Shown: positions 14,035 to 23,033 of the stretch, in pieces | Position numbering within the stretch: the first letter of the stretch is position 1 | Layout: each line of letters opens with the position of its first letter | Source of the DNA: Acidimicrobiia bacterium | GTDB taxonomy: Bacteria; Actinomycetota; Acidimicrobiia; IMCC26256; PALSA-610 | Direction of reading: 5' to 3' | Length of the DNA stretch: 34,943 nucleotides | Assembly: GCA_036271555.1 (NCBI GenBank) | Contig: DATBAK010000038.1 | Span: 1-34,943 of the forward strand | Made by a program: the position numbers and the translations under genes | The notes under the pieces: generated by a model | Seen by the model: only the letters and a program-made list of their open reading frames with translations | What the model was told of the DNA's origin: nothing | The model's database searches: none

Positions 14035-16242
14035 ATGCCGATCGGAATCACGGCCGAACACGTCGAGCTCGCGCAGGTCGCGAGCCGGTTCGTCGAGGCC
14101 CAGGTGCCGCCGAGCGTCGTGCGCCTCACGGTCGACGCGCCCGCCGACGCCCGTCCCGAGTTCTGGGCCGCGCTCGGCGAGCTGGGCTGGACCGGACTGC
14201 ACATCCCCGAGGCCCACGGCGGCTCGGGTTACGGCGCGGTCGAGCTCGCGGTCGTGCTCGAGGCCCTCGGTCGCGGCTGCGTCCCCGGCCCCTTCCTCCC
14301 CACGGTGCTCGCCGCCGCGGTGCTCACCGAGGCTGCGGCCGGTGAAGCCGCGAAGGCGTTGCTCCCCCAGCTCGCGACCGGCGCCAAGGTCGCGACGATT
14401 GCGCTGACGAACGCGCTGGACGGTGAGCCCGTCGCCGACGGGCTGAAGCTGTCGGGCGCGCTCGAGCCGGTGGTCAGCGCGACCGTCGCCGACGTGGCGC
14501 TCGTCGCAGTTCGCAACACCACGTCGGGCGCCGCCACGTGGTGCGTGCTCGACCTCGCCGATGCCAACGTCGCCGTGACGGACCTCGGCAGCGTCGATCT
14601 CACGCGCCGGGCCGGCCGCATCGAGGTCGACGGCGCGGTCGTCGCGATCGACGACGCGCTCGCCGCGGTACCGACCGAAACGGTGCACCACCTCGCCGCG
14701 GTGCTGTTCGCGGCCGAGGCGATCGGCCTCGCGCAGTGGTGTGTCGACACCGCGAGCCAGTACGCGAAGGATCGCGTCCAGTTCGGGCGACCGATCGGAC
14801 AGTTCCAAGCGGTGAAGCACCGCTGCGCCGACATGCTCTCGCGCACCGAGCTCGCACGCGCGGCGGTCTGGGATGCGGCACGCGCGATCGACGACCGCGA
14901 CAACGGCGGCTCGCTCGCGATCGCAGGCGCGGCATCGCTCGCGCTCGACGCGGCCTTCGAGAACGCGAAGGACTGCGTGCAGACGCTCGGCGGCATCGGC
15001 TTCACGTGGGAGCACGACGCGCACCTCTACCTGCGCCGCGCGGTCACGCTGCTCCAGCTCGTCCGGTCGCCGAGCTCGTGGCGGCAGGAAGCCGCGCGCG
15101 TCGCGATGAGGGGCGAACGCCGGCGGCTCTCGCTCGACGTCGGCGAGGACGCCGACCGCCTGCGCGCCGACCTGCGCGCGCTGCTCACCGAAGTGAAGGC
15201 GCTCGACCCGCACGCGCAGCGCATCCGCCTCGCCGAGGAGGGCTACGTCAGCCCCGGCTGGCCGCGTCCGTGGGGCCGCGACGCGAGCGCGCTCGAGCTG
15301 CTCGTCATCGAAGAGGAGTTCCGCGCTGCGAAGATCATGCGGCCCGGCATCAGCGTCGGCGCGTGGGCGCTGCCGAACCTCATCGTCTACGGCACGCCCG
15401 AGCAGCAGGAGCGGTGGATCATGCCGACGCTCCGCGGCGAGATCACGTGGTGCCAGCTCTTCAGCGAGCCCGGCGCGGGCTCCGACCTCGCGGGACTGTC
15501 GACGCGCGCGCAACGGGTCGACGGCGGCTGGATCGTGAACGGGCAGAAGGTGTGGACGTCGATGGCGAAGGAAGCCGACTGGGGCATCCTCCTCGCGCGC
15601 ACCGACCCCGACCGTCCGAAGCACGACGGGATCTCGTGCTTCATGGTCGACATGCACACGCCGGGCATCGACATCCGGCCGCTGCGCGAGCTCACCGGTC
15701 ACGCGATGTTCAACGAGGTGTTCTTCGACGACGCGTTCGTGCCCGACAACGGGCTCGTCGGTCAGGAGCACGACGGCTGGCGCTGCGCGCGCACGACGCT
15801 CGCGAACGAACGCGTCTACATGGGTTCGAGCAACACCATCGGCGGCGGCGTCGTCGGCGTGCTGCGCGAGCTCGAGCAGCACGGCCTTGCCGACGACGCT
15901 GCCGCGCTCGACACCGCGGGCGGCCTCGCGGCGACCGCCCACGCGCTCGCGGTCCTCAGCTACCGGATGACGCTGTCGGCGCTGCGCGGCGCGGACCCGT
16001 CGGGCTCGGAAGCGGCGGTGCGCAAGCTGCTCGGCGTGCAGCACGACCAGCGCGTGCAGGAAGTCGGCATGCGGCTCGCGGGCGCGACGTCGGTGACGAA
16101 CGACGGTCAGCCCGGCGCGTGGGTGCAGTCGTTCCTGTTCAACCGCTGCCTGACGATCGCGGGCGGCACGACCGACATCCAGAAGAACGTGATCGCGGAG
16201 CGCCTGCTGGGCTTGCCCCGCGATCCCGAACCCCAGCCTTGA
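14035..16242 (+). CDS. Fused two-domain acyl-CoA dehydrogenase (FadE34-like)
   Basis: A 735-residue protein with two complete ACAD folds in one chain, as in mycobacterial FadE34. Domain 1 is about residues 1-355 and ends with GGIGFTWEHDAHLYLRRA. Domain 2 is about 370-735 and has EPGAGSDLAG, NGQKVWTSMAKEADW, and ends with AGGTTDIQKNVIAERLLGLP. The Glu of the classical MCAD position is Gly in domain 2, while Glu592 in TLANERVYMG lies where isovaleryl-CoA-dehydrogenase-like enzymes carry their base, so I infer one active site in domain 2 and a partly structural domain 1. The enzyme would introduce a 2,3-double bond into a bulky acyl-CoA such as a steroid side chain. The ATG follows palindromic operator A; MaoC follows 12 nt downstream. 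Confidence 0.9.
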   Translation: MPIGITAEHVELAQVASRFVEAQVPPSVVRLTVDAPADARPEFWAALGELGWTGLHIPEAHGGSGYGAVELAVVLEALGRGCVPGPFLPTVLAAAVLTEAAAGEAAKALLPQLATGAKVATIALTNALDGEPVADGLKLSGALEPVVSATVADVALVAVRNTTSGAATWCVLDLADANVAVTDLGSVDLTRRAGRIEVDGAVVAIDDALAAVPTETVHHLAAVLFAAEAIGLAQWCVDTASQYAKDRVQFGRPIGQFQAVKHRCADMLSRTELARAAVWDAARAIDDRDNGGSLAIAGAASLALDAAFENAKDCVQTLGGIGFTWEHDAHLYLRRAVTLLQLVRSPSSWRQEAARVAMRGERRRLSLDVGEDADRLRADLRALLTEVKALDPHAQRIRLAEEGYVSPGWPRPWGRDASALELLVIEEEFRAAKIMRPGISVGAWALPNLIVYGTPEQQERWIMPTLRGEITWCQLFSEPGAGSDLAGLSTRAQRVDGGWIVNGQKVWTSMAKEADWGILLARTDPDRPKHDGISCFMVDMHTPGIDIRPLRELTGHAMFNEVFFDDAFVPDNGLVGQEHDGWRCARTTLANERVYMGSSNTIGGGVVGVLRELEQHGLADDAAALDTAGGLAATAHALAVLSYRMTLSALRGADPSGSEAAVRKLLGVQHDQRVQEVGMRLAGATSVTNDGQPGAWVQSFLFNRCLTIAGGTTDIQKNVIAERLLGLPRDPEPQP

Positions 16243-16254
16243 AGGGAACGCGCC

Positions 16255-16680
16255 GTGGGTGAGCAGAAGGTCTTCTTCGAGGACGTGCGCGAAGGCGACG
16301 AGGGGCCGCCGCTCTCGCACGCGCTCACGCGCACCGATCTCGTGATGTACGCGGGTGCGTCGGGCGACTTCAACCCGATGCACACCGACGAGGTGGCCGC
16401 GCAGGCCGCGGGACTTCCGAGCGTGTTCGGTCACGGCATGTTCAGCGCGGGGCTGCTCGGCACCGCGGTGACGAACTACGTCGGCATCGGCAACCTGAAG
16501 TCGTACAAGGTGCGGTTCACGAAGCAGACGTGGCCGGGCGAGACGCTCACCACGAAGGTCGTCGTCAGCGAGAAGCGCCCCGACACGTCGGAGGTCGTGC
16601 TCGCGTGCGAGCTCGTGAACCAGGACGGCGAGGCGAAGATCGCGGGCCAGGCCGTCGCCGCGTTGCCGACGCGCGGCTGA
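16255..16680 (+). CDS. MaoC-family enoyl-CoA hydratase (hydratase 2 type)
   Basis: A 141-residue single hot-dog-fold hydratase. The catalytic dyad Asp38/His43 is in GASGDFNPMHTDEVAA, which fits the R-hydratase motif fully. It would hydrate the double bond made by the upstream dehydrogenase. The GTG at 16255 follows an AAGGGA Shine-Dalgarno by 7 nt. Single-domain MaoC proteins in steroid loci often pair with a partner that binds the acyl chain; no second MaoC is visible here, so it is a homodimer or its partner lies elsewhere. It sits between the ACAD and a DUF35 gene, in the order of the mycobacterial igr-type pathway. Confidence 0.9.
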   Translation: MGEQKVFFEDVREGDEGPPLSHALTRTDLVMYAGASGDFNPMHTDEVAAQAAGLPSVFGHGMFSAGLLGTAVTNYVGIGNLKSYKVRFTKQTWPGETLTTKVVVSEKRPDTSEVVLACELVNQDGEAKIAGQAVAALPTRG

Positions 16681-16692
16681 GCGAACCGACCG

Positions 16693-17157
16693 ATGCGCTT
16701 CGACCTCCCGACGCCCGACAACGACACCGCGCCGTTCTGGGACGCGGCGAAGGACGGCAGGTTCCTCCTGCGCCGCTGCCTCGATTGCAACGCGACGTAC
16801 TTCTATCCGCGCCCGTTCTGCCCGAAGTGCTGGAGCGAGCGCGTCGACTGGGTCGAGGCGAGCGGTCGCGCGGTCGTCTACACGTACTCGGTCGTCGTCG
16901 TGAACGACCTGCCGCCGTTCAACGAACGCGTCCCGTACATCGCCGCGGTCGTCGATCTCGAAGAGGGTCCGCGCGTGATGACGAACGTCGTCGACTGCGA
17001 TCTCGACGTGGTGCGCGTCGGGATGCCGGTCGAGGTGACGTTCCGTCCGCTGAACGACGACATCACGATCCCGGTCTTCAAACCGGCGGTTCTTGCAGGA
17101 ACCGGGTCGTCGGCAGAGGCGCCCGGAGCGGCGAGCGGGCAACGGGATGCCGGCTGA
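16693..17157 (+). CDS. DUF35 zinc-ribbon/OB-fold protein 1
   Basis: A 154-residue protein with an N-terminal helix, a zinc ribbon (Cys29, Cys32, Cys43, Cys46 in RRCLDCNATYFYPRPFCPKC) and a C-terminal OB fold (VVYTYSVVVV, VPYIAAVVDLEEGPRVMTN, VGMPVEVTF). Known members bind thiolase-like proteins; in the cholesterol pathway the DUF35 part of ChsH2 forms the aldolase with Ltp2. It follows MaoC by 12 nt. The last ~20 residues (TGSSAEAPGAASGQ) look disordered. The second DUF35 gene of the cluster is only moderately similar, so the two are not a recent duplication. Confidence 0.9.
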   Translation: MRFDLPTPDNDTAPFWDAAKDGRFLLRRCLDCNATYFYPRPFCPKCWSERVDWVEASGRAVVYTYSVVVVNDLPPFNERVPYIAAVVDLEEGPRVMTNVVDCDLDVVRVGMPVEVTFRPLNDDITIPVFKPAVLAGTGSSAEAPGAASGQRDAG

Positions 17158-17584
17158 AACGCCCGTGCCGAGTCGAGCGGGCGCGACCGACATGACGGTT
17201 ATTCTCGGTCGGCTCGCGAGTGTCGACGGTCGGAGTGACTCGTTGCCCAGCCAGGACTGGAACTTCCCGTTCGAGGGTCCGCTGCACGAGGTGTTTCCCG
17301 CGCTGCACGAGGCGCAGAACGCGTGGATGTCGCAGGTCGACTCGCTCACCGCGCCCGACCGCAAGACGCACGAGCTCATCCGCATGGCGGTGACGGTCGT
17401 GTTGCGCAATCACGAAGGTGTGCGCCGTCACGCGATGCTCGCGCACGAGGTCGGCGCGACCTGGGAAGAGGTGCTCGGCTCGATCATGCTGACGACGCCG
17501 GGCGTCGGGCTGCTTCCCGCGGTGCAGGCGATTCCCCACGCGCGCGAAGGCTTCGACGCCGCGCGCACGACCGAAGCGGAGTGA
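17147..17584 (+). CDS. Carboxymuconolactone-decarboxylase-like (AhpD-fold) protein
   Basis: A 145-residue all-helical protein of the CMD/AhpD superfamily. The core reads HELIRMAVTVVLRNHEGVRRHAMLAHEVGATWEEV, where the usual CxxC or CxxH dyad is replaced by NHEG, while the later His residues remain. It cannot therefore be a thiol peroxidase, and a decarboxylase or ring-opening hydrolase role is possible but unproven. The ATG at 17147 overlaps the DUF35 gene by 11 nt; an alternative ATG at 17192 (MTVILGRLASVDG) is also plausible and gives 130 residues. A strong hairpin follows the stop. Confidence 0.75.
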   Translation: MPAETPVPSRAGATDMTVILGRLASVDGRSDSLPSQDWNFPFEGPLHEVFPALHEAQNAWMSQVDSLTAPDRKTHELIRMAVTVVLRNHEGVRRHAMLAHEVGATWEEVLGSIMLTTPGVGLLPAVQAIPHAREGFDAARTTEAE

Positions 17585-17589
17585 CGCGT

Positions 17590-17622
17590 GGCTGAAGCAC
17601 CGGAGCCGGTGAGCGTTCAGCC
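17590..17622 (+). terminator. Hairpin between the CMD-like and second DUF35 genes
   Basis: The arms GGCTGAA (17590-17596) / TTCAGCC (17616-17622) enclose an inner ACCGG (17599-17603) / CCGGT (17606-17610) stem, followed by TTCT. It begins 6 nt after the stop. It may terminate or attenuate transcription before the DUF35-Ltp pair. Confidence 0.55.
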
Positions 17623-17670
17623 TTCTGATCGGAGGCGGCACCCCGTGCCGAGACGAGCGAGCATGCGACC

Positions 17671-18105
17671 ATGAGTACTGACGTGCCTTTTCGGATCCTG
17701 CCGCAGCTGACCGACAACAACCGCGCGTTCTGGCAGGGCGGCGAGCGCGGCGAGCTCGTGTTCTGGCGCTGCCAGGACTGCAAGTTCTACATCCATCCGC
17801 CGCAGCCGATCTGCCCGATGTGTCACTCGAAGAACCTCGCGACCGAGGCCGTCTCCGGCGACGCGACGCTCACGACCTACTCGGTGAACTACCAGCCGTG
17901 GATGCCGGGTCCGGAGCTGCCGTACGTGGTCGCGATCATCGAGATCGTCGAGCAGCCGAGCGTGCGGCTCACCACGAACGTCGTGGGCGTACCGATCGAA
18001 GCGCTCGAGATCGGCATGCCGCTGCACGTCGTGTTCGAGCACCACCCCGACCCCGACGGCGACGTCTGGATCCCGCTCTTCGCCCCGCCGGGATACACGT
18101 CATGA
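17671..18105 (+). CDS. DUF35 zinc-ribbon/OB-fold protein 2
   Basis: A 144-residue protein with the same architecture as the first: N-terminal helix with NNRAFWQGGERGELVFWRC, zinc ribbon at Cys34, Cys37, Cys48 and Cys51, then an OB fold (LTTYSVNYQPW, LPYVVAIIEIVEQPSVRLTTN, IGMPLHVVFEH). It is the more likely direct partner of the Ltp2-like protein, whose gene starts 106 bp downstream. In characterised homologues this module seals the active site of the aldolase and channels the hydrated acyl-CoA. The ATG at 17671 gives the family N-terminus; no clear SD is seen. Confidence 0.9.
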   Translation: MSTDVPFRILPQLTDNNRAFWQGGERGELVFWRCQDCKFYIHPPQPICPMCHSKNLATEAVSGDATLTTYSVNYQPWMPGPELPYVVAIIEIVEQPSVRLTTNVVGVPIEALEIGMPLHVVFEHHPDPDGDVWIPLFAPPGYTS

Positions 18106-18172
18106 CGCCGTCGAACCCGCGGCCGAAGGCGAGCGCGGAGCGAGCGTCGAGGCTCGCCCAGCGAGCGTGCGA

Positions 18173-18197
18173 GTCGGCGTCCCGAAGGGGAGCCGAC
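18173..18197 (+). repeat. Hairpin in the GCGAGCG-rich spacer before the Ltp2-like gene
   Basis: Stem GTCGGC (18173-18178) / GCCGAC (18192-18197), a one-base bulge, then TCCC/GGGA closed by a GAAG loop. It lies in a 106-bp spacer rich in repeated GCGAGCG, just before an AAGGAG Shine-Dalgarno (18199-18204) and the GTG at 18212. It could affect translation of the thiolase-like gene. Confidence 0.5.
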
Positions 18198-18211
18198 GAA
18201 GGAGCGAGCGA

Positions 18212-19420
18212 GTGAGTACCGCCAACGAGATCATCGAGCGGCGCGCCTGCATCAGCGGGGTGGGGCAGTCCGAGATCGGACGCCGGCTCGGGCGCGACCC
18301 GCTCGAGCTCACGCTCGATTCGTGTCTCGCCGCGATCGCGGACGCAGGTCTGACGACGAAGGACATCGACGGCCTCTCGACCTATCCGGGTCCGATGAGC
18401 ACGCCCGCGGGGTTCAGCGGTGCCGGCGCGTACGACGTGATGGACGCGCTGCGGCTGAACTGCGGCTGGTACGGCAGTGGGCTCGAGACATCGGGTCAGC
18501 TCGGCTCGGTGATCAACGCGTGCATGGCCGTCGCGTCGGGACTCGCGAACCACGTGCTCTGCTTCCGCAGCGTCTACGAGGGCAGCGCGCAGGGTGCGAA
18601 GGGTCGTTCCGCGGTGATGCCGGGCGGCGGGGGCGGCGGCAGCTTCAAGGCGAGCGGGTTCATGCAGTGGAACCTCGTGTTCTCCGCACCGTCGGCCGCG
18701 ATCTGGATCGGTATGTTCGCGCAGCGCCACTTCCACGAGTACGGCACGACGCGCGAGCAGCTCGCGTGGATCGCGTTGAACGCGCGGCGCAACGCGGCGT
18801 TGAACCCGAACGCGATCTACACCGCGCCGATGTCGATGGACGACTACTTCGCGGCGCGCATGATCGCGACGCCGTTCTGTCTCTACGACTGCGACGCGCC
18901 GTGCGACGGCTCGACCGCGGTCATCGTGTCGCGCATCGATCGCGCGAAGGATCTGCGCAAGCCGCCGTTGCGTATCGAGGCGGTCGGCTCCGCGATCCAC
19001 GGCCGCCCGTCGTGGGACCAGTTCGACGACCTGTCGACGATGGCGAACCGCGACGCGGCCGCGCAGCTCTGGACGCGCACCGACCTCAAGCCGAGCGACG
19101 TGCAGCTGCTCGAGGCCTACGACGGCTTCTCGTTCATCACGATGTCGTGGATCGAGGCGCTCGGGTTCTGCGAGGTGGGGGAGAGCGGCCCGTTCGTCGA
19201 GGGCGGCACCCGCATCGCGCGCGACGGCGAGCTTCCGCTCAACACGCACGGCGGCCAGCTGTCGGCCGGCCGCCTGCACGGATACGGGTTCCTGCACGAG
19301 ACCGCGGTGCAGATGTGGGGCGAGGCCGGCGACCGGCAGGTGCCGCGCGTGCCCGAGGTCGCGATCGCGGCCGCGGGCGGCGGCAACACCTGCGGCTGCC
19401 TGCTCCTCGTCAAGGACTAG
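18212..19420 (+). CDS. Ltp2-like thiolase-fold protein, probable retro-aldolase
   Basis: A 402-residue lipid-transfer/thiolase-superfamily protein. The region that holds the nucleophilic Cys in true thiolases reads GSGLETSGQLGSVINAC, with no Cys at the expected place. The C-terminal GHP motif is replaced by LSAGRLHGYGFLHE. The segment LLEAYDGFSFITMSWIEALGFC contains a Tyr in the place where Ltp2-type aldolases use tyrosines. I therefore infer a retro-aldol lyase that releases a short acyl-CoA (propionyl-CoA in Ltp2) rather than a CoA-dependent thiolase. The GTG at 18212 is set by AAGGAG 7 nt upstream. It ends the cluster, after two DUF35 genes. Confidence 0.85.
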   Translation: MSTANEIIERRACISGVGQSEIGRRLGRDPLELTLDSCLAAIADAGLTTKDIDGLSTYPGPMSTPAGFSGAGAYDVMDALRLNCGWYGSGLETSGQLGSVINACMAVASGLANHVLCFRSVYEGSAQGAKGRSAVMPGGGGGGSFKASGFMQWNLVFSAPSAAIWIGMFAQRHFHEYGTTREQLAWIALNARRNAALNPNAIYTAPMSMDDYFAARMIATPFCLYDCDAPCDGSTAVIVSRIDRAKDLRKPPLRIEAVGSAIHGRPSWDQFDDLSTMANRDAAAQLWTRTDLKPSDVQLLEAYDGFSFITMSWIEALGFCEVGESGPFVEGGTRIARDGELPLNTHGGQLSAGRLHGYGFLHETAVQMWGEAGDRQVPRVPEVAIAAAGGGNTCGCLLLVKD

Positions 19421-19464: not shown

Positions 19465-19812
19465 TCACGACGCGTCCGCGCCTGACCGCGCGCCCGCTCC
19501 GGCGACCTCCGGCTCGGCCGCAGCGTCGGTTTCGCGCGTGTTCGTGCGCTCGCGGATCCGCTTGATCCGCTCGGCGATGTCGGCCGCGGCCTGCTCGAGG
19601 TCGCGCTGGAGTGCTTCGAGCGACTCGAGGTCGCCGAAGCGCCGCCGACCGCGACGACCGCGCTTCTCGCGTCCGCCGCGCGACTCGCGGTCGTGATCGT
19701 GATCGTGATCGTGATCGTGGCCGTGGTCGTGGTCGTGGTGGTGGTGGTGATGATGGTGGCGACGGTCGCGTTCGCGTTCGTCGCAGATGTCGCAGTGGTG
19801 ATGGTGATGCAT
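19465..19812 (-). CDS. Histidine-rich putative metal-binding protein
   Basis: A 115-residue protein with 20 His among its first 40 residues: five in a row after Met1, a CDIC pair (Cys7, Cys10), eight in a row at 19-26, then an alternating His-Asp tract to about 41. A basic RGRRGRRRF segment follows, then a predicted coiled-coil helix (LESLEALQRDLEQAAADIAERIKRIRERT) and a disordered acidic tail. No signal peptide or membrane segment. The ATG at 19812 shares one base with the PadR stop and has AGGAG 5 nt upstream, so it is translated with the regulator. Binding of Ni, Zn, Co or Cu is inferred from composition. It could be a metal store, a metallochaperone or a co-sensor for the PadR protein. 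I know of no named family for it. Confidence 0.75.
   Translation of the reverse strand: MHHHHHCDICDERERDRRHHHHHHHHDHDHGHDHDHDHDHDRESRGGREKRGRRGRRRFGDLESLEALQRDLEQAAADIAERIKRIRERTNTRETDAAAEPEVAGAGARSGADAS
19691..19720 (+). repeat. TCGTGA hexamer tandem repeat coding His-Asp
   Basis: Four perfect TCGTGA units and one imperfect unit encode the His-Asp alternation of the His-rich protein on the minus strand. A codon-level repeat like this can expand or contract in two-residue steps without a frameshift. Confidence 0.8.
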
Positions 19813-20237
19813 CAAGTCTCCTGTTGGTAGCGCCGCAGGAATGCGGTGGTGGTGTCGTTGGTGGCGCGCAGTGCCTTCGCCCACGCGTCGAGCAGCGCGC
19901 GTCCCGCGGGCGTGAGCGCGTAGGTGCGCTTCACGCGACCGGGGAGGTCGTCGCGCCAGCGGGACGCGACGAGCCCGTCTTCTTCGAGGCCGCGCAGCAT
20001 CCGGTAGAGGTTGCCGAGGTCGACGCGCTCATCGGGGACGAGCGCCTCGAGCCGGGCCGCGAGGTCGTAGCCGTGCACCTCGTCGTCGCGCAGCACGAGC
20101 AGCAGCGCGGGTTCGACGAAGCGCTCGACGCGCGCGTGGACCTCCCACGACCCGTCACGCTCGTTCCACAGTCGCGAACGCGCCGCGCCGGGGCGACGGT
20201 GCTGACCGCGATGGTGGGAGTCGTGTCGGTGGTCCAT
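19812..20237 (-). CDS. PadR family transcriptional regulator
   Basis: A 141-residue PadR-type winged-helix repressor. The signature is seen as FVEPALLLVLRDDEVHGYDLAARLE, then DLGNLYRMLRGLEEDGLV (recognition helix) and the wing RTYALTPAGRALL, with a C-terminal dimer helix. A His-rich N-terminal extension of ~20 residues (DHRHDSHHRGQH) precedes the fold and may bind metal, matching the poly-His partner. The ATG at 20237 lies 7 nt after a TATAGT -10 and is preferred to the GTG at 20246, which would fall inside that box. An inverted repeat over the -35 suggests autorepression. It is co-transcribed with the His-rich gene. Confidence 0.9.
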   Translation of the reverse strand: MDHRHDSHHRGQHRRPGAARSRLWNERDGSWEVHARVERFVEPALLLVLRDDEVHGYDLAARLEALVPDERVDLGNLYRMLRGLEEDGLVASRWRDDLPGRVKRTYALTPAGRALLDAWAKALRATNDTTTAFLRRYQQET

Positions 20238-20244
20238 GCCGACC

Positions 20245-20284
20245 ACTATAGATGTTACTTACACTGTGTCAAGCACATAAGTAA
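20245..20284 (-). promoter_or_regulatory. padR promoter with overlapping dyad operator
   Basis: On the minus strand TTGACA (20267-20272) and TATAGT (20245-20250) are separated by 16 nt, close to the sigma-70 consensus. Seven bases later comes the ATG at 20237, so the message is probably leaderless. Centred on the -35 is the dyad TTACTTA (20255-20261) / TAAGTAA (20278-20284) with an inner TGTG/CACA. PadR proteins commonly bind ATGT/ACAT-type dyads, so this is the likely autoregulatory operator. The AT-rich patch stands out in the GC-rich region. Confidence 0.75.
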
Positions 20285-20343: not shown

Positions 20344-20598
20344 ATGTGCGCCCCCATGCGACGCATCAACCCCATCGGGTGGCTCTTGATCGCGGTGGGC
20401 GTGATCCTGATCATCGTCGGAATCATCTACTTCACGACCACGCCGCCGAACCTGCCCGGCTTCTTCCCGGGCGTGGTGGCGCACCCGAAGGCGGGCCACG
20501 TGTACAAGCACAAGTACACGAAGCGCGGCGGCGCGGCCTTCGTCGTGGCCGTCGTCGCCTTCGTCGGCGCCTACTACGCCGGCTTCCGCCGCCGCTGA
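20344..20598 (+). CDS. Small two-helix membrane protein
   Basis: An 84-residue protein with two predicted membrane helices, at about 11-30 (IGWLLIAVGVILIIVGIIYF) and 63-80 (AAFVVAVVAFVGAYYAGF), joined by a 30-residue loop with PGFFPG and several Lys/His (HPKAGHVYKHKYTKRG). It is divergent from padR and could be controlled by the same dyad. A second in-frame ATG at 20356 is an alternative start. I do not recognise a family. The last codons lie within a palindrome shared with the convergent ACAD gene. Confidence 0.65.
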   Translation: MCAPMRRINPIGWLLIAVGVILIIVGIIYFTTTPPNLPGFFPGVVAHPKAGHVYKHKYTKRGGAAFVVAVVAFVGAYYAGFRRR

Positions 20599-20636
20599 CC
20601 GCGGCGTTCGGAACAACCGAGCGGCGGGGCGGTCAG
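20595..20636. terminator. Bidirectional hairpin containing both convergent stop codons
   Basis: The outer arms CTGACCGC (20595-20602) and GCGGTCAG (20629-20636) each hold one stop codon: TGA of the membrane protein and, read on the other strand, TGA of the ACAD. An inner stem CGTTCGG (20605-20611) / CCGAGCG (20617-20623) closes on an AACAA loop. It can fold equally in either RNA. Confidence 0.65.
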
Positions 20637-21763
20637 GAGCGGGGCGAGAGCGCGAGCGCCGCCAGCTCTTCGAGCGCGTCGTCGGCCGCGCCGAGCGTGT
20701 ACGCGAGCGAGAGCAGGCGCTTGTAGTACAGGTGCACGTCGTGCTCCCACGTGAAGCCGATCCCGCCGAAGACCTGGATCGCGCTCCCGCCGACCTGCGG
20801 GAACGCCTCGCTCGCGAACGCCTTGGCCATCGTCGCGGCCCGGTGCGCCTCTTCGGGCGGTGCGTCGTCGGCGGCCCAGCAGGCGTAGTAGCCCGCGGCC
20901 CGGCCGAGCTCGACGGCGCGCAGCATGTCGGCGCACAGGTGCTGCACCGCTTGGAACGAGCCGATCGGGTGGTCGAACGCGATCCGCTCCTTCGCGTACT
21001 CGACCGCGAGCTCGAGCGCGCGGGCCGCGGCGCCGACGCCGTCGATCACCGTCGCCACCGCCATGCGGTCGACCGTGCGCGCGACCGCGGCGGACGCGTC
21101 GGTCGAGCCGAGCCGCCACCCGGGTGCGCCGTCGAGCGCGACCGTCGCCTGCTTGCGCGTGCCGTCGACCGTCGGCGTCGCGGTGATCTCGATGCCACCC
21201 GCGCTCGTCTGCACCGCGAACACGCCGACGGTGTCGTCGTCGGCGACCGTCGCGCTCACGAGAACGACGTCGCTGCCGACCGCGTCGGGCACGTGCACCT
21301 TCTCGCCCTCGACGACCCAGCCCTCGCCGACGCGGCGAGCACTCGTGTGCGGTGACGCGACGTCGAAGCGCCGACCCGGCTCGAGCAGCGCGACCGTTCC
21401 GACCACCGATCCACTCGCCATCGCGGGCAGCAGGAACGAGTGCTCGCGCGATGCGCCCGCCGCGAGCGACAGCGTGACCGCGCCGACCGCGGTCGCGAGG
21501 TACGGACCGGGATGGACCGCGCGCCCGAGCTCCTCGAGCACGACCGCGGCGTCGACCATCCCCATGCCGGCACCGCCGTGCTCCTCGGGCACGAGCAAGC
21601 CGACGACACCGAGCGCGGCGAGACCGTCCCATACCTCGGGCGTGCGGTCGGCGTCGCCGTCGAGGAGCGGGCGCACGTAGCTCGCGATCGGCGCGCGGTC
21701 GGCGAGGAACCGGCGCACCGAGTCGCGCAGCAGTTCCTGATCCTCCGAGAACTCGAAGTCCAC
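20633..21763 (-). CDS. Acyl-CoA dehydrogenase (non-base subunit type)
   Basis: A 376-residue ACAD with N-terminal FEFSEDQELLRDSVRRFLADR, a mid-domain beta barrel, AKERIAFDHPIGSFQAVQHLCADM, and C-terminal FGGIGFTWEHDVHLYYKR. It resembles domain 1 of the fused ACAD and lacks an obvious catalytic Glu at the IVD-type position. This is the pattern of the partner subunit in the alpha2beta2 heterotetrameric ACADs of actinobacterial steroid degradation, and I infer that it pairs with the divergently encoded ACAD. The GTG at 21763 follows GGAGG by 4 nt; the open frame runs further upstream without similarity. The promoter region carries palindrome B. Confidence 0.85.
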   Translation of the reverse strand: MDFEFSEDQELLRDSVRRFLADRAPIASYVRPLLDGDADRTPEVWDGLAALGVVGLLVPEEHGGAGMGMVDAAVVLEELGRAVHPGPYLATAVGAVTLSLAAGASREHSFLLPAMASGSVVGTVALLEPGRRFDVASPHTSARRVGEGWVVEGEKVHVPDAVGSDVVLVSATVADDDTVGVFAVQTSAGGIEITATPTVDGTRKQATVALDGAPGWRLGSTDASAAVARTVDRMAVATVIDGVGAAARALELAVEYAKERIAFDHPIGSFQAVQHLCADMLRAVELGRAAGYYACWAADDAPPEEAHRAATMAKAFASEAFPQVGGSAIQVFGGIGFTWEHDVHLYYKRLLSLAYTLGAADDALEELAALALSPRS

Positions 21764-21804
21764 CCCGCCTCCGTGTGTGCGATCGCCCTGGTCAGCCCGC
21801 ATTG

Positions 21805-21820
21805 CTGACACGCGTGTCGG
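21805..21820. promoter_or_regulatory. Palindromic operator B (CTGACACGC motif)
   Basis: CTGACACGCGTGTCGG, with a perfect 12-bp core GACACGCGTGTC (21807-21818), lies between the divergent ACAD starts: 19 nt before the plus-strand ATG and 41 nt before the minus-strand GTG. It could repress both genes. It shares its first nine bases with sites A and C. Confidence 0.7.
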
Positions 21821-21825
21821 AAAAC

Positions 21826-21831
21826 TACCCT
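21826..21831 (+). promoter_or_regulatory. -10 box of the plus-strand ACAD (leaderless)
   Basis: TACCCT followed by 8 nt and the ATG at 21840, directly after operator B. Confidence 0.5.
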
Positions 21832-21839
21832 CGCCGCCG

Positions 21840-23033
21840 ATGCGCCTGCAGTACGACGACGCCGACGAGGCGTTCCGCGCCGAGCTCGACGCGTGGTTGG
21901 CGGAGAACTGTCCGCCGCGCGAGGTCTTGAAGCAGCCGAAGCTCTCGAGCGCGCACCTTCCCGACTGGGCGCGCGCGTGGCAGCAGCAGCTCTTCGACGC
22001 GGGCTGGCTCGTGCCCGGCTGGCCGTCCGAGCTCGGCGGTCGCGACGCCACACCGACGCAGCAGATGATCTACTTCGAGGAGATGTCGCGCCGCGAGATC
22101 CCGCGGTCGCTCAACCCGCAGGCGCTCGGCATCATCGCCCCGTCGATCCGCGACTACGGCACCGACGCGCAGCGCGCGCGGTTCCTCATCCCGACGTTGC
22201 GCGCCGAGATCGCGTGGTGCCTCGGCATGAGCGAGCCCGGCGCCGGCAGCGACCTCGCGAGCCTCTCGACGCGCGCGGTGCTCGACGGCGACGAGTTCGT
22301 CGTGAACGGGCAGAAGGTCTGGACGTCGGGCGCGCATCATGCCGACTGGTGTCTCTGCTTCGTGCGCACCGATCCCGACGCGCCGAAGCACAAGGGCATC
22401 TCCGCGCTGCTCGTCGACATGCAGACGCCGGGTGTCGAGTGCCGCCCGTTCCCCGAGCTCTCGGAGCCCGATTTCTGTGACTTCAACGAGGTCTTCTTCA
22501 GCGACGCACGGGTGTCGCAGGAGAACCTCGTCGGGCCGCTGAACGGCGGGTGGGCGATCACGCAGGGCTCGCTCGGTCACGAGCGGGCGATGCTGTGGGT
22601 CGACTACGCGTACAACCTCCAGCGCGCGGTCGGGGCGATGATCGGGCTCGCGGACCGGCCCGCGCCCGGAGGCGGGCGGCTCGGCGACGACGACCGGTTC
22701 CGCGACGCGGTCGCGTCCTTCTACGTCGACACGCAGGCGCTCATGGCGATGGGCTATCGCGGCTTCTCGAAGTTCATGGCCGGCAAGGCGTCGCCCGAGC
22801 ACTCGCTCCTCAAGTTGTACGGGAGCGAGTCGTTGCAGCGCTGCCTGCTCGCCGCGAGCGAGACGCTCGGGCCCGAGATGGTCGACCTCGACGTCTTCGG
22901 TCCGCAGATGTGGCGCGAGGGATCGTGGGCGATCCAGTACCTGCGCTCGTTCAGCGCCACGATCCCGGGCGGAACCAGCGAGATCCAGCGGAACATCATC
23001 GCCGAGCGCGTGCTCGGCCTGCCGCGCGCGTAG
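21840..23033 (+). CDS. Acyl-CoA dehydrogenase (catalytic subunit type)
   Basis: A 397-residue ACAD. Landmarks are WLAENCPPREV near the N-terminus, LGMSEPGAGSDLASLSTRA (FAD/substrate loop), NGQKVWTSGAHHADW, LLVDMQTPGVECRPFPEL, Glu248 in SLGHERAMLW at the position of the isovaleryl-CoA-dehydrogenase base, and the C-terminal IPGGTSEIQRNIIAERVLGLPRA, where the MCAD-type Glu is Gly. It corresponds to domain 2 of the fused ACAD and to the base-bearing subunit of steroid ACAD heterotetramers. The ATG at 21840 follows a TACCCT box by 8 nt. An unknown Cys/His protein gene follows 11 nt after the stop. Confidence 0.92.
   Translation: MRLQYDDADEAFRAELDAWLAENCPPREVLKQPKLSSAHLPDWARAWQQQLFDAGWLVPGWPSELGGRDATPTQQMIYFEEMSRREIPRSLNPQALGIIAPSIRDYGTDAQRARFLIPTLRAEIAWCLGMSEPGAGSDLASLSTRAVLDGDEFVVNGQKVWTSGAHHADWCLCFVRTDPDAPKHKGISALLVDMQTPGVECRPFPELSEPDFCDFNEVFFSDARVSQENLVGPLNGGWAITQGSLGHERAMLWVDYAYNLQRAVGAMIGLADRPAPGGGRLGDDDRFRDAVASFYVDTQALMAMGYRGFSKFMAGKASPEHSLLKLYGSESLQRCLLAASETLGPEMVDLDVFGPQMWREGSWAIQYLRSFSATIPGGTSEIQRNIIAERVLGLPRA

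Follow-up and report, generated by a model that had tools for sequence, protein, structure and literature searches.

Why should the gene for a PadR-family repressor be coupled to one for a small protein loaded with histidines? Two such genes lie in the window, the whole 34,943-nucleotide stretch of DNA analysed here, and an earlier note had read them as a metal-responsive switch. The upstream gene (19812–20237, reverse strand; ATG at 20237, TGA at 19814–19812) encodes a 141-residue member of the PadR family (Pfam PF03551; E=3.6e-16, 59.4 bits against a gathering cut-off of 27). Its winged-helix domain spans residues 45–117 (19887–20105, reverse strand) and is preceded by an N-terminal arm whose start carries the histidines that the earlier note had pointed out: five in residues 1–13 (20199–20237, reverse strand), followed by Arg20-x-Arg22. 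All homologues tabulated have histidine or cysteine in this arm. Residues 20–33 (20139–20180), which lie ahead of the winged helix and are modelled as a β hairpin, contain an invariant R-x-R and a near-invariant G-x-W-x-V. The AlphaFold2 model of the protein (mean pLDDT 84.9) features the winged helix and a C-terminal helix at residues 110–140, and Foldseek matched it to Rv3488 with a probability of 1.00 and 37–39% identity.

The second gene (19465–19812, reverse strand) encodes a DUF5320-like protein of 115 residues, which we call the partner. Its ATG shares the A at 19812 with the stop codon of padR, in the form TGATG, and an AGGAG within the 3′ end of padR (19818–19822, reverse strand) is its likely ribosome-binding site. 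The N-terminus is packed with ligand residues much as first described, with 20 histidines in the first 41 residues. HHHHH and the CDIC motif (residues 7–10) occupy residues 2–10 (19783–19809, reverse strand), and a His/Asp tract extends over residues 19–41 (19690–19758, reverse strand). At the DNA level, this tract is a 6-bp tandem repeat (TCGTGG, 10.8 copies, 89% matches), so the exact length is probably a product of slippage. AlphaFold2 assigned the tract a pLDDT of about 50, and the partner N-terminus is probably disordered.

The earlier note had treated the poly-His stretch as the defining feature of the partner, a view that the homologues do not support. What they keep is a C-terminal helix, placed by AlphaFold2 at residues 57–99 of the window protein (19516–19644, reverse strand; LExLQRDLExxxADIAERI), with a mean pLDDT of 93–98 in residues 61–90. 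The consensus across homologues is LExLQRDLExxxADVAxRI, with Glu66, Arg70, Leu72 and Glu73 invariant, and a leave-one-out hidden Markov model (HMM) of the helix recovered the window partner at E=2.7e-12. The N-terminus varies, being rich in His, Met or Cys. As judged from these alignments, the helix is the conserved part of the partner, and the long poly-His stretch is one extreme version of its tail.

Searching relatives for the PadR–partner linkage upheld it clearly. By leave-one-out HMM, the partner helix gene comes straight after padR in 27 of the 29 readable loci that belong to one PadR clade. It is absent behind all 33 more distant PadRs, although for one or two of these the downstream sequence is short. 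In the tree, the close group forms a single clade of 31 sequences (support 100/98) that includes three loci from outside Acidimicrobiia; nine close relatives came from a scan of genome contigs. Stop and start codons overlap by 1 or 4 nt in 16 of the 18 loci compared. PadR proteins matching at E<=1e-15 are present in 35 of 395 Acidimicrobiia genomes. On gene order and sequence similarity, the pair is a conserved two-gene unit in Acidimicrobiia and a few other bacteria. Locus L020, from the window's own family, is without the helix; the gene in the same overlapping position there encodes a His-rich protein that contains a hydrophobic segment. In locus L037, which belongs to the clade, the end of PadR itself weakly matches the partner helix (E=0.08), a possible fusion of the two proteins. 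On a Mycobacterium riyadhense plasmid (L101, 1453–1991), the gene for a PadR without the N-terminal part overlaps that of a Cys-type partner in which the helix is conserved.

The unit lies inside a cluster of acyl-CoA dehydrogenase, MaoC, ChsH2-like and thiolase genes (14035–19420 and 20633–23033), which resembles gene sets for steroid or acyl side-chain degradation. The neighbours in the window (acyl-CoA dehydrogenase, thiolase, ChsH2-like) are not metal genes. Elsewhere the unit is flanked by a P-type ATPase and a pyrophosphatase (L008), a P-type ATPase (L006), or MFS, MerR and ArsR/rhodanese genes (L009). Because the flanking genes differ between lineages, the unit looks self-contained; together with the 27 of 29 linked loci and the conserved placement of the operator described below, this agrees with the original description of a self-contained, autoregulated pair. 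The intergenic region that holds the padR promoter also lies upstream of a small divergent ORF (20344–20598, forward strand), which is predicted to encode a membrane protein and had no Pfam match over the cut-off.

The promoter is as near to consensus as first reported. A −35 box, TTGACA (20267–20272, reverse strand), is separated by a 16-bp spacer from a −10 box, TATAGT (20245–20250, reverse strand), giving 11 of 12 consensus matches; one such promoter was found, compared to 0.1 in shuffles. The ATG of padR follows only 7 nt past the −10 box, and the padR transcript should therefore be leaderless. Given a leaderless transcript from this promoter, an upstream in-frame GTG would not be the padR start.

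The operator originally proposed was a TTACTTA/TAAGTAA dyad. Its arms are present (20284–20278 and 20261–20255), but 8.7% of shuffles of the padR intergenic region (a frequency of 0.087) yield such a dyad and none of 25 homologous promoters carries it; we rejected it as the operator on both grounds. The element common to the homologous promoters, aligned on the start codon, is instead an RTGT-N5-ACAY palindrome. Counting copies with at least 7 of 8 matches, we found at least one in 23 of 26 homologous promoters (shuffle mean 2.95, maximum 7) and two in 17 of 26 (shuffle mean 0.28, maximum 3). Most copies fall either at −41, and then include the −35 hexamer, or within the spacer at −24 to −27. 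The predicted operator 1 of the window, ATGTGCTTGACAC (20266–20278, reverse strand), includes the −35 box, and the predicted operator 2, GTGTAAGTAACAT (20252–20264, reverse strand), lies inside the −35/−10 spacer. ATGT/ACAT inverted repeats are a known type of PadR operator, and members of the family are known to autoregulate (PMC3506622). This family trait of the target promoter is represented here by the two RTGT-N5-ACAY copies, with a 5-bp spacer that is shorter than the 8–10 bp of LmrR-type sites (PMC3506622). On account of the operator position, its conservation and the family precedent, an autorepressed two-gene operon is well supported by the sequence comparison.

A double-site pattern search of the 4.68-Mb genome returned the window pair as the sole match, the pattern being one that doubles with GTGT first and ACAC last escape. 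Single RTGT-N5-ACAY sites number 81 per strand, compared to 15 for a reversed control. No second target emerged from this regulon search among the sites listed; of the two that we inspected, one is located where a reductase-like coding sequence begins and the other precedes a TetR-type gene, and neither is a double site. In locus L097 (1944–1980), a TTACATAC/GTATGTAA palindrome immediately precedes the GTG start of a TetR-type gene and is probably that gene's own operator; judged by this spacing, the gene is probably leaderless too.

Does the unit have anything to do with metals? The partner N-termini contain on average 18.9% His, Cys and Met, compared to 5.2% in flanking proteins, and 25 of 26 reach at least 10%, as opposed to 7% of background windows. 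The tails are His-rich in the window and L018, Met/His-rich in L021, L024 and L031, and Cys-rich in L009 and L032; they are hard to align among homologues, and in many of them Gly and Arg are abundant as well. The His contents of the PadR arm and the partner are not correlated (Spearman 0.25, p=0.21), and the Cys contents are weakly so (Spearman 0.44, p=0.025, with no correction for relatedness or for the five tests). What makes a role for metals plausible is the enrichment of His, Cys and Met in these N-termini and the precedent of a nickel-responsive PadR, NfeR/YqjI, a repressor relieved by excess nickel (PMC7981267). As the dominant ligand residue varies among His, Met and Cys, no single metal can be named.

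These observations can be rationalized by the following mechanism, which taken as a whole we give an even chance of being right. A PadR dimer would bind the two adjacent RTGT-N5-ACAY sites over the −35 box and spacer of its own leaderless promoter and, once bound, would presumably keep RNA polymerase off it. The overlapping second gene would be translated along with padR, yielding a small protein that combines the conserved helix with a probably disordered N-terminus rich in His, Met or Cys. The helix most likely docks on PadR, a contact suggested by the gene linkage and the weak L037 case, and the composition of the N-terminus suggests that it binds a transition metal or a metal cluster. Metal status would then alter the binding of PadR to DNA, so that the unit could set its own level. 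The gene overlap, the clade-wide linkage, the predicted operator pair at a fixed position, the partner architecture and the ligand enrichment are all read directly from sequence. A more specific version regards the unit as a hitherto undescribed metalloregulatory module whose metal sensor is a separate, fast-evolving partner, translationally coupled to PadR: lineages would swap His, Met or Cys tails and thereby retune metal specificity, while PadR, the docking helix and the operator pair stay fixed. We put this version forward tentatively, as something short of probable.

The partner could instead be the effector, a buffer or chaperone for a metal or an Fe–S or Mo cluster that is made on demand, with PadR alone sensing the signal, either through the His or Cys residues of its arm or by binding a small molecule. 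The arm indeed carries His or Cys, and there is a precedent in PhaQ, a PadR-like repressor that acts on its own promoter and shares a transcript with the downstream gene phaP (PMC9049629). Further support comes from the neighbours of genes for DUF5320 (PF17253), a family to which 16 of 23 partners show a match at E<1 (the best at 5.8e-6). Scored singly, partner homologues reach up to 24.5 bits, under the 27-bit gathering cut-off, and the window partner had no match to the model at E<=1, again short of that cut-off. Like the partners, DUF5320 proteins combine a Cys/Met/His/Gly-rich N-terminus with a C-terminal helix, and some are encoded beside PadR. The Chloroflexota plasmid CP069395.1 has an annotated PadR–DUF5320 pair beside a NifB/NifX cluster-binding gene, and DUF5320 genes also adjoin ATPase genes (L136). 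A genome from another actinobacterial family contains a Cys-type DUF5320/PadR pair in the opposite gene order, its PadR having an N-terminal CSC; this pair and the one on the plasmid count in favour of the proposed mechanism as well. However, the clade-wide conservation lies in the helix, and L037 seems to hold that helix inside PadR, which favours a contact between PadR and partner; we consider the effector reading rather unlikely. An account without any metal, in which the His/Asp tract is low-complexity sequence grown by slippage and the helix does no more than adjust PadR or the stability of the partner itself, draws on the 6-bp repeat beneath the tract, on the poor alignability and predicted disorder of the N-terminus, and on its frequent Gly and Arg. 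Against it, the ligand enrichment recurs in 25 of 26 partners and in three forms (His, Met, Cys), and we judge this account unlikely.

The same PhaQ precedent raises the question of whether the unit belongs to a polyhydroxyalkanoate (PHA) system, as PhaQ plus a phasin-like helical partner. The best NCBIfam match of the window PadR is the PhaQ model TIGR02719, and PhaQ of Priestia (Bacillus) megaterium is 40% identical to it over the PadR domain. In loci L059–L079, PhaQ-type PadRs that look Rubrobacter-like (a guess at the taxon) are followed by a conserved helical gene whose sequence reads as phasin-like. The match to TIGR02719, however, scores 63.1 bits against an equivalog cut-off of 139.35, and the window's genome contains no PHA synthase PhaC (PF07167); for these two reasons we rejected the PHA reading, which is very improbable. 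PhaC tracks the more distant PhaQ-like PadRs, being enriched in genomes that have them (4 of 8, p=0.0004), and not this unit (3 of 27 genomes, p=0.17). The partner homologues are DUF5320-like rather than phasins, and Pfam gave no phasin match for the window partner.

How does the autorepressed PadR–partner unit compare with known systems? The earlier note had held that no system of this layout is described. For the layout itself this does not stand, as PhaQ–PhaP is an autoregulated two-gene arrangement of the same kind (PMC9049629). The differences lie in the detail: phaQ and phaP are 172 bp apart and the window genes overlap, and the window partner is not a phasin. NfeR/YqjI of Escherichia coli and Klebsiella pneumoniae is a PadR protein with a His-rich N-terminal extension. 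It controls a neighbouring ferric reductase gene, whereas the window unit has a small partner in that place and its metal response is hypothetical; no ferric reductase gene was identified among the neighbours of the window PadR. The window PadR has the fold of Rv3488 and of other small PadR proteins whose structures are solved, and we know of no Rv3488-type PadR encoded with a ligand-rich helical partner. Literature searches on PadR with His-rich proteins, DUF5320 or Acidimicrobiia returned nothing on this arrangement. Precedents thus exist for the layout and for a metal-responsive PadR, and the part of the novelty claim that survives is their combination with an exchangeable ligand-rich helical partner, which the searches made did not find. 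The operator, the partner helix and the clade are now defined well enough for direct testing. Should the proposed mechanism hold, it would provide a first function for DUF5320-like proteins. Metal-sensing repressors normally have their sensor in the same chain; a conserved unit with a separate, exchangeable ligand-rich protein would illustrate a way to retune metal specificity while leaving DNA recognition untouched.
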